Shown in pieces: positions 6,895 through 42,007 of a stretch of DNA of 42,007 bases; within the stretch, counting starts at the first letter, position 1; every line of letters begins with the position of its first letter. This DNA is from Magnetococcales bacterium (GTDB lineage: Bacteria > Pseudomonadota > Magnetococcia > Magnetococcales > UBA8363): the NCBI GenBank assembly GCA_015228815.1, contig JADGCV010000014.1, positions 1 to 42,007 of the forward strand. The letters run 5' to 3'. The notes beneath the pieces are model-generated. The model had not been told where the DNA came from. It worked only from the letters and a program-made list of their open reading frames with translations, and did no database searches. The position numbers and the translations under genes were made by a program.

Positions 6895-6919
6895 GGTTCA
6901 TCGAAGTACGGGTTCAATG

Positions 6920-7056
6920 ATTGAAAGAAAAAAGGGGTCTAATGGTATGGTCCGCCCCGTTCCCAACGGCCTCGAAATGGGCCAAGATGGATTTCAGTCA
7001 ACCATCAAACAGAGAACGGAGCGAACCATACCATTAGACCCCTTTTTTCTTTCAAT
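6920..7056. repeat. Short complete MITE-like element with 32-bp terminal inverted repeats (copy R3)
   Basis: The left arm 6920-6951 and right arm 7025-7056 are perfect 32-bp inverted repeats beginning ATTGAAAGAAAAAAGGGGTC; similarity continues imperfectly a few bases inward. About 73 bp lie between the arms and contain no ORF. The first 71 bp are repeated exactly, inverted, at 1-71. It lies between topA and mnmG, both transcribed leftward, so it forms part of the mnmG upstream region. No clear target-site duplication is visible. Confidence 0.85.
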
Positions 7057-7091
7057 AGTCTCGATCCGGGGAAGTACCTTTTTTCTTTCAC

Positions 7092-18313: not shown

Positions 18314-18778
18314 GGTAACTGCCCAGGTACTCTCTTGGTTCAATTATTGAAAGAAAAAAGGGGTCTGGGGGATTGCCCCCAGGGTTTTGATTTTGTTTTT
18401 GACTTTGTTTTGGACTTTGTTTTTTACGCGCTATTTCACCCGAAGCGGTTTCTCGCATGGTTTTTGCGAGAAACCGCGCAGGCGCGCGCTTTGGTCTGTC
18501 TTTCTTCGCGTTTTTTGCGAAGAAGGACAGACGCATTGCCGGTTGTAAGGCCTGAAAACTTGCAATGCGTCCCGATCTTTTCGCAAAAACCGCGAAAAGA
18601 TCGGGACCAAGGCGCGCGCCTACGCAAGATTCCCGCAAAAACCACGCGGGAATCTTGCTTCGGGTGAAAGGGCGCGTGGAAAAACAAAATCAAAAACAAA
18701 GTCAAAACCCTGGGGGCAATCCCCCAGACCCCTTTTTTCTTTCAATAATTGAACCCAGAGGGTACCTGGGCCGTTACC
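18314..18778. repeat. 465-bp nested palindromic element with five internal hairpins (copy R4)
   Basis: The outer arms match as inverted repeats from GGTAAC[T/G]GCCCAGGTAC inward through the ATTGAAAGAAAAAAGGGGTC terminus and the CTGGGGG/CCCCCAG hairpin. Between them lie five stem-loops: 18445-18477 (13 bp), 18494-18532 (16 bp, one wobble), 18531-18570 (9 bp, central), 18570-18606 (15 bp) and 18624-18658 (13 bp). The two left loops contain TTTT-type sequence and the two right loops AAAAACC. The spacers between hairpins are also inverted repeats of each other (GGCGCGCGCTTTGGTC against GACCAAGGCGCGCGCC; TTTCACCCGAAGC against GCTTCGGGTGAAA). Open frames across it are on both strands and follow the palindrome, so they are not taken as genes. 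Confidence 0.88.
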
Positions 18779-23883: not shown

Positions 23884-24005
23884 TGCCTCCTCCCTTGTCT
23901 TGACTGAAAATGAAGAAATGCACAACCCTTCCCGCGCCCGAACCGGTCGAGAGTTAAACATTCGATCGTCTCTGCGCAAGGGGTCAGGGAAAGATTTTTG
24001 GTAAC
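23884..24005. repeat. Direct repeat A, leader of the Gld-type operon
   Basis: About 122 bp that aligns at roughly 80 percent with 25240-25365 in the same orientation. Shared blocks include CTTGACTG, AAATGAAGAAAT, GAACCGGTCGAG, ACATTCGA and CGCAAGGGG. In this copy it is the 5' leader of the ABC operon and includes its Shine-Dalgarno sequence. Identity was estimated by eye. Confidence 0.75.
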
Positions 24006-25239: not shown

Positions 25240-25365
25240 TCGCTTCTCTCCCTTGCCTTGACTGAAATGAAGAAATCCATGATCCTTCCCCATGCCTGAA
25301 CCGGTCGAGGATCATACATTCGACCGTCTCCACGCAAGGGGCCAGTGAAAAAATTCTGGAAACCA
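25240..25365. repeat. Direct repeat B, upstream of the IS110 transposase
   Basis: The partner of 23884-24005. It lies about 80-200 bp upstream of the transposase start. Just left of it, 25221-25243 (GCACGCCTCAATCCTTGAATCGC) matches 28525-28547 at the chemoreceptor stop codon in 22 of 23 positions. From 25366 to 25518 I see only AT-rich sequence leading to the next gene. Confidence 0.7.
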
Positions 25366-28274: not shown

Positions 28275-28473
28275 GAACGTCTGTCTTCCTTCGCAAAAAA
28301 CGCGAAGAAGGACAGGCCAAGGGGCGCGTCTTACGCGAATTTCCGCAAAAACCGCGGGAATTCGCTTCGGGTGAAATGGCGCGTGGAAAAACAAAATCAA
28401 AACCCTGGGGGCAATCCCCCAGACCCCTTTTTTTTCAATAGTCCCAAACCGGGGAGGTCCCTGGGCAGTTACG
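28275..28473. repeat. Half of the nested-hairpin element (copy R6)
   Basis: The right half of the structure seen at 18314-18778: hairpin 28281-28315 (14 bp, one mismatch, one wobble, loop AAAAAAC), hairpin 28335-28365 (12 bp, loop AAAAACC), the GCTTCGGGTGAAA spacer, the CTGGGGG/CCCCCAG hairpin and T-run terminus, then an extended end reaching GTTAC. No left half is present. It lies between the radical SAM gene and the chemoreceptor gene and marks one edge of the islet. Confidence 0.82.
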
Positions 28474-41220: not shown

Positions 41221-42007
41221 GATGGCGGGAACTCTGCTGCGTGAGCGCTTGCCAAAGGAAGTGGTGGCGGTGTTGTCCGATGATCCGCCAGAATTGGTGG
41301 AGGGTTCGTTCGTCGATGAGGCGTTGCGTGCCCATTTGACGGATCGGCTCTACCGGGTCAAGACGGTTACTGGTCGGGTGGCTTTGCTGTACGTGCTGAT
41401 CGAACACAAAAGCTTTCCCGACGTGCGTATCAGTTGGCAATTGTTAAACTACATGATCGAGGCGTTGAAACAATGGGAACGCGAGCATCCAGAATGGGAG
41501 CGACTTCCGGCCATCGTCCCCTTCGTGTTTTACCATGGCGCGACAGCATGGCGCGTGCCGGACGAGTTCCTGGCTTTGGTGGATGCCGAAGAAGACTGGC
41601 GTTCCTACCTGCTGAACTTCCGTTTCACGGTTTTGGATCTGGGCCAGATCGACGATCGTTCGATCTCCCGCCAGCCGGTTTTGCGTGCCTGGCTGCTGGC
41701 GGCAAAATACGCAACTCGCGATGGCCAGCAGATTCAGGTAAAAGAGTTGCTGGTCGAAGCGCTGATTCAAATCCCGAATGAAGATTTCCGATTTCTGATG
41801 CGCTATGTGGTCGAAACCTACCGCAGCTACGACGAGCCGACGGTGCGTGAAATCATTCGCAGGGTACATCCCGAGGAGGAAGTCAATATGATGTCCCTAT
41901 TTGCACAGGAAATGATTACAAAAGGGGAACAGAAGGGACGACGGGAGGGACGACGGGAGGGACGACAGGAAGGACGACAGGAGGGACGACAGGAGGGACG
42001 ACAGGAA
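41162..42007 (+). CDS. Rpn-family recombination-promoting nuclease / putative transposase, 3' partial
   Basis: The open frame continues to the last base of the window (282 codons so far). The N-terminus HPHDRFFKVLLSNPKMAGTLLRE and the following GSFVDEALRAHLTDRLYRVKT...LYVLIEHKSFPD...ISWQLLNYMIEAL match the PD-(D/E)XK core of the Rpn (YhgA-like, transposase_31) family, with D, E-x-K and Q in place. The family was linked in E. coli to RecA-independent recombination. The stop is beyond the window. The known portion ends in a GR(R/Q)E tandem repeat, common at the C-terminus of this family. Confidence 0.87.
   Translation, partial: MTNISHPHDRFLKVLLSNPKMAGTLLRERLPKEVVAVLSDDPPELVEGSFVDEALRAHLTDRLYRVKTVTGRVALLYVLIEHKSFPDVRISWQLLNYMIEALKQWEREHPEWERLPAIVPFVFYHGATAWRVPDEFLALVDAEEDWRSYLLNFRFTVLDLGQIDDRSISRQPVLRAWLLAAKYATRDGQQIQVKELLVEALIQIPNEDFRFLMRYVVETYRSYDEPTVREIIRRVHPEEEVNMMSLFAQEMITKGEQKGRREGRREGRQEGRQEGRQEGRQE
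41936..42007 (+). repeat. 12-bp tandem repeat in the Rpn gene
   Basis: Six consecutive 12-bp units, GGACGAC(G/A)GGA(G/A) in codon frame, encode Gly-Arg-Arg-Glu twice and Gly-Arg-Gln-Glu four times. The array reaches the window edge, so its total length is unknown. Unit length is a multiple of three, so copy-number change would alter protein length without a frameshift. Confidence 0.9.

Follow-up and report, generated by a model that had tools for sequence, protein, structure and literature searches.

A palindromic IS66-type element with an elaborate paired-hairpin interior in a Magnetococcales bacterium

The terminal inverted repeats of the IS66 family begin with GTAA, and bacterial IS-derived MITEs of the IS66 type resemble the repeat described here in being short and non-coding, in carrying GTAAC terminal inverted repeats and in showing 8-bp duplications in several copies. 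The resemblance extends to a congeneric IS66 element with the same ends and to a very stable predicted fold. Unlike that of IS-derived MITEs, the interior here is a mirrored array of four hairpins whose stem sequence is free, and, unlike in IS66-type MITEs, the core is also found in other families, where it lacks these ends. REPINs and BIMEs are likewise dispersed inverted hairpin pairs of mosaic composition, and the hairpins of REPINs show compensatory changes (PMC3116915). The element here is several times longer, however, without a GTAG tag or an adjacent RAYT gene, and where REPINs and BIMEs combine conserved ends with a free spacer, it combines conserved loops with free stems. The BOX, RUP and SPRITE repeats of pneumococcus resemble it in that their insertions cluster and nest within one another, and in having terminator-like parts (PMC10969869). 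They differ in sequence, in ends and in taxon. A paired-hairpin plan is not known to be part of BOX, RUP or SPRITE. Finally, template switching during replication creates and maintains paired stems while keeping the loop, and the resulting blocks of compensatory change are similar to those reported below; such hairpins were described in rRNA genes, whereas the present ones belong to a mobile element that is repeated many times per genome throughout an order (PMC8794818).

The window, that is, the whole stretch of 42,007 nucleotides analysed (contig JADGCV010000014.1, assembly GCA_015228815.1), contains two members of one repeat family, a full copy at 18315-18777 and a half copy at 28279-28472. 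The half copy was delimited from the sequence, a covariance model (match at 28279-28376, E 9e-19) and alignment with other copies. It is a truncated relic that consists of the right half only, on the plus strand, its 5' end being cut precisely where the inner hairpin has its base. This inner hairpin (28279-28317, plus strand) starts GTCTGTC, belongs to the lineage termed Y below, and has a 16-bp stem, with two G-T pairs and one C-A mismatch, and the loop AAAAAAC. It is followed on the plus strand by the linker CAAGGGGCGCGTCTTAC (28318-28334), by an outer hairpin of class A (GCGAATTTCCGC; 28335-28365) with a 12-bp stem including one G-T pair and the loop AAAAACC, by the conserved spacer GCTTCGGGTGAAA (28364-28376), which has two bases in common with the hairpin arm, and by a terminator-like stem-loop with T tract (CTGGGGGCAATCCCCCAGACCCCTTTTTT; 28405-28433). 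The element's right end is the terminal repeat at 28457-28472, which reads GTAACTGCCCAGGGAC on the minus strand. The fold of the half copy has z = -4.7 as RNA.

The full copy (L058) is a palindrome of 463 bp with the ends GTAACTGCCCAGGTAC ... GTACCTGGGCCGTTAC. Its left half, on the minus strand, carries a terminator-like stem-loop (18365-18382), an outer hairpin of class C (GCGGTTTCTCGC; 18445-18477) and an inner hairpin of lineage Y (18494-18532); its right half, on the plus strand, carries an inner hairpin of lineage X (GTCCCGATC..., 18569-18607), an outer hairpin of class B (GCAAGATTCCCGC; 18624-18658) and the terminator-like stem-loop that mirrors the left one (18710-18727). Its folding is far beyond chance, with z = -33 for DNA and -31 for RNA. 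In the predicted minimum-energy structure, two four-way junctions sit along a rod and two side hairpins project from each of them; the linkers of opposite halves of full copies pair and connect the junctions. The same fold was predicted for a relative from another family (L253). In three further copies (L259, L285, L217) the two outer hairpins are the same or have much of their arms in common; here the prediction shows them absorbed into the rod, with the inner junction alone remaining.

The draft genome (4.2 Mb in 96 contigs) yielded 61 BLAST matches, at more than 60 sites, together with 66 exact sites of the spacer GCTTCGGGTGAAA, and many contigs start or stop within the element. Full-length copies measure 390-460 bp and comprise two inverted halves. 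From the outside inwards, each half has a GTAAC end, an A/T-rich stretch, a terminator-like stem-loop, a run of AAAATC/AAAAAC units that varies between copies, the spacer, an outer hairpin of 11-13 bp, a CCAAGGCGCGCGCCTAC-like linker and an inner hairpin, usually of 16 bp in this genus, before a short centre. The exact pattern of spacer plus GGCGCG is practically limited to two of the species in the genus, with single stray matches elsewhere, and a search of viral contigs with the spacer pattern gave no match. Among named genomes rich in copies, the nearest is that of Magnetococcales bacterium DCbin4, which has been treated among the freshwater magnetotactic cocci (PMC6783814). The window holds other repeats besides. 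One family with the shared end AATTATTGAAAGAAAAAAGGGGTCTAATGGTATGGTCCGCCCC... occurs at 1-75, 6916-6990 and 7014-7057, and the window start is a contig end inside such a repeat. Two 80-bp direct repeats (23926-24005 and 25284-25363) are 78% alike and lie 1358 bp apart, and a GGGACGACGGGA-like 12-bp tandem repeat (41917-42000) lies within the long open frame at the window end.

The mobility of the element was studied through its ends. At up to one mismatch, the end sequences GTAACNGCCCAGGTAC and GTAACNNTTCAGAYCCCTC were found at 84 and 26 sites, respectively, and both ends (GTAAC...GTTAC) are present in L004, L009, L014, L018 and L058. Perfect 8-bp target duplications flank L004 (415 bp), L009 (435 bp), L014 (453 bp) and L055 (395 bp), while none was found at the full copy of the window, L003 or L018. 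Such duplications have been tabulated for IS66 elements of Paracoccus (PMC3281130). Five smaller GTAAC-ended elements, three of about 227 bp (L204, L206, L208) and two of 72 and 111 bp (L048, L194), likewise have perfect 8-bp duplications; since these carry no hairpins, the hairpins are not needed for duplication-making insertion. Some GTAAC elements are nested in the GAAAAAAG stretch of another copy. One congener (G005) has a fragment of an IS66 transposase about 140 bp inward of an end with the sequence GTAACTGCCCAGGTACC, which is the terminal sequence of the element as well. In a second (G001), inverted GTAACTATTCAGCACCCCCC ends enclose an IS66 gene that is complete (472 aa, PF03050, E 8e-49), and the flanking 8-mers of this element, whose ends read GTAACTATTCAG, agree at 7 of 8 positions. 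Taken together, the shared ends and the 8-bp duplications identify the element in this genus as non-autonomous and of the IS66 type (a MITE). An autonomous candidate in G006, with two half copies about 1.7 kb apart, was rejected, as the ORFs between them were not transposase-like by inspection and the halves are probably independent insertions.

The IS66-type mobility is supported for this genus only. The element's own genome contains an IS66 match of only 49 residues, a remnant, and no intact transposase was found in the assembly. Across the order, 48 Magnetococcales genomes were searched with a covariance model of the half unit, and the hairpin core was detected in 24 of them, covering 7 of 17 genera; no match was obtained in the family that includes a single-contig genome. 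GTAAC ends are absent from the core in other families and, given this and the 49-residue remnant, IS66 cannot explain the spread of the whole family. Those other families have inner stems of about 15-21 bp and outer stems of 10-14 bp that do not resemble the ones of this genome in sequence, and their loops are A-rich, for example AAAAAGC, AAAAAGAC, TGGAAAAC and GAAAAGCAT. The plan common to the order is one of inverted halves forming a rod, with an inner four-way junction that bears two mutually different hairpins. Among the distinct inner stems of the order-wide set the basal 8-mers are 35% identical, which is almost random, and on the outward strand A-rich loops make up 149 of 153, a count to which the covariance model's own preference adds some bias. 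In three copies from other families (L260, L275, L280) tandem CCAAGGGCTTTGCCCTTGGATCCCA-like stem-loops flank the element, and in L260 those on one side mirror those on the other.

The element was brought to attention by an earlier note on the half copy, whose quoted strings were located where it had placed them. It had described three stems beside the spacer that differ and yet remain paired. They do differ and pair, although pairing in the half copy is not perfect, with its G-T pairs and C-A mismatch. The loops are kept, being AAAAACC-like outward in all hairpins, and the inner stem is indeed GTCTGTC-like at 28279 and 18494, with GTCCCGATC in the right half at 18569. The three hairpins of one window, which the note had read as covariation and which could not show it by themselves, are instead three modules, and it was only by adding relatives that covariation was obtained. 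Inner hairpins were scored in a fixed 16-7-16 frame and fall into two lineages, X and Y, each present in several species of the genus. In X (24 distinct sequences) 95% of cells are paired and both sides have changed in 10 of 16 pairs, and in Y (21 sequences) the values are 95% and 9 of 16; the input was restricted to distinct hairpins already having at least 10 or 11 pairs, which favours the percentage paired and affects the both-sided changes less. The covariation score was 0.619 for X, against 0.199 shuffled and at most 0.157 slid, and 0.297 for Y, against 0.165 shuffled and at most 0.172 slid, where the shuffles do not remove relatedness and the slid controls retain it. For the inner and outer hairpin of a half together (21 sequences), 17 of 29 pairs have changed on both sides, with a score of 0.517 against 0.186 shuffled. 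Comparison of X with Y gives an identity of 38% for the ten basal pairs, 98% for the five apical ones and 82% for the loop. The claim that bases change while pairing is kept therefore holds in larger alignments above both kinds of control, and covariation supports conserved pairing.

Within the genome a different picture was seen. Only three stem classes of the outer hairpin occur genome-wide, with both arms of one class in 27 (A), 20 (B) and 9 (C) hairpins. Inside each class the arms hardly vary, and the point changes, few in number, are one-sided, for example GCGGG for GCGGA in the half copy of the window and GAGGG for GCGGG in several B copies. Stem differences inside the genome are exchanges of discrete modules, not point-by-point compensation. 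Hybrids are present as well: L090 joins a B arm with an A arm, and in L042, L093, L095 and L100 the 5' arm of an inner hairpin is joined at the loop to the 3' arm of an outer one; these five copies comprise hybrid hairpins and loop-to-loop deletions. The shared CGCAAAAACCGCG-like loop is the crossover point. In L009 and L014 the inner stems have arms of two subtypes and pairing is broken, and several truncated copies (L001, L020, L094, L026, L044) stop at a hairpin base or loop. In two copies near contig starts (L097, L104) a long T run of about 15 T stands in place of a hairpin arm, which may be due to slippage of replication at the T-rich loop or else to faulty assembly.

The two halves of a copy were also compared. 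Their inner hairpins differ in every full copy that could be scored for both, usually with equal lengths. Their outer hairpins were identical in none of 13 copies from this genome (permutation p ~0.008, for copies that descend from each other). That the outer hairpins always differ was rejected as a general law, given the exceptions L259 (genome G020) and L285 (genome G005). Note, however, that copies with identical halves may be hidden by draft assemblies, in which contigs end inside the element. Kissing loops between the mirrored hairpins were considered and rejected: the loops are complementary by symmetry, yet by eye their variants do not track within copies.

The best explanation as a whole, which we hold to be probable though far from certain, is that these are palindromic, non-coding mobile elements, in this genus of the IS66 type, whose pairing is kept at the DNA level. 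The GTAAC...GTTAC ends would be the recognition sites of a transposase acting in trans, which would also generate the 8-bp target duplications. The element would fold on one strand into the predicted rod, with its hairpins as side arms of the four-way junctions. The stems vary freely in sequence and stay paired, and sequence itself is conserved in the A-rich loops, the linker and the spacer. Hairpins or cruciforms may arise during replication, when template switching could use one arm to rewrite the other, and any copy that lost the structure or became a simple long palindrome would disappear. Shared loops would serve as crossover and deletion points, shuffling stem modules between and within copies.

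It could be that homogenisation alone is at work, with intrastrand template switching copying arm onto arm and no selection on structure. The mechanism is documented to keep the loop and the structure and to yield clusters of compensatory changes (PMC8794818), the stem classes differ by whole blocks and not by single pairs, and the conserved part, the apical pairs plus loop, is a natural priming site for template switching. The covariation does not in itself demonstrate selection, because template switching predicts the same pattern, kept loops included; the earlier note's argument for selection on structure thus stands as regards conserved pairing, with selection as its keeper not established. 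Against a purely neutral process, the linker, spacer and A-rich loops are recognisable across families though the stems are nearly saturated, which argues that something constrains the element. Moreover, the loops hold the single polarity described above, a preference of the model contributing somewhat, although template switching can invert loops too, and arm hybrids with broken pairing persist (L009, L014). We consider the neutral account a possible but rather unlikely one. Hairpins at the DNA level, maintained by selection together with template switching, are favoured.

Selection on RNA, with transcribed hairpins acting as terminators, mRNA stabilisers or structured non-coding RNA, is improbable. 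It would fit the outward-pointing terminator-like stem-loops at both ends, the very stable RNA fold and the intergenic location of both window copies. It would also lead one to expect an excess of G-U on the transcribed strand, but G-U and A-C cells number 35:21 in X and Y and 5:15 order-wide, where the finder treats G-U as a mismatch; as neither strand has a consistent excess of G-U over A-C, nothing in these counts points to RNA. No Rfam 15 family gave a match above its gathering score, with a permissive search returning only sub-threshold hairpin matches, and no promoter-like site was found when looked for. The hairpins are split half and half between the strands. Crude ORF calls place copies in tandem (16), convergent (7) and divergent (4) contexts, and a bidirectional-terminator role was rejected, as this shows no clear convergent bias in spite of the terminator-like ends.

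One further interpretation, about equally improbable, is an order-wide class of mobile DNA that is recognised by its shape. The folded junction, and not the stem sequence, would be read by a transposase, a resolvase or a host factor, and hence the two equal-length hairpins would have to differ and carry oriented A-rich loops, with stems otherwise free.

A REP- or REPIN-like origin, with movement by a RAYT tyrosine transposase, is very improbable. Dispersed paired inverted hairpins with compensatory changes are found in REPINs (PMC3116915), and the genome holds one Y1 transposase gene (L213). However, no such hairpin lies within about 1.5 kb on either side of this single locus, no conserved GTAG (or CGTC) tag stands beside the hairpins (among the listed copies the linker end varies as CTACGC, CTGCGC or TTACGC), and the GTAAC ends and 8-bp duplications fit a DDE transposase instead. 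With no repeat-flanked Y1 gene in the genome, the RAYT link was rejected. Independent insertion of unrelated hairpins at the same place, which the earlier note had named as an alternative and to which the little common sequence of classes A, B and C might lend some colour, is excluded for practical purposes, as the stems occupy homologous positions between conserved spacer, linker, loops and closing pairs, intermediate stems occur in relatives and the junctions that such insertions would need were not seen.

The element is, then, a palindromic non-autonomous IS66-type element with an unusually elaborate hairpin interior, a member of an order-wide family, and most likely parasitic and shaped by hairpin formation at the DNA level. 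Literature searches found no published description of this dispersed Magnetococcales repeat family, which does not prove that none exists, and the repeats break contigs in these assemblies. The family warns against taking covariation statistics as proof of a functional RNA when the sequences are mobile palindromes. It further supplies natural replicates in two dozen genomes, with stems rewritten and pairing kept, so that a single family allows a test of whether covariation originates in selection or in template-switch mutation.
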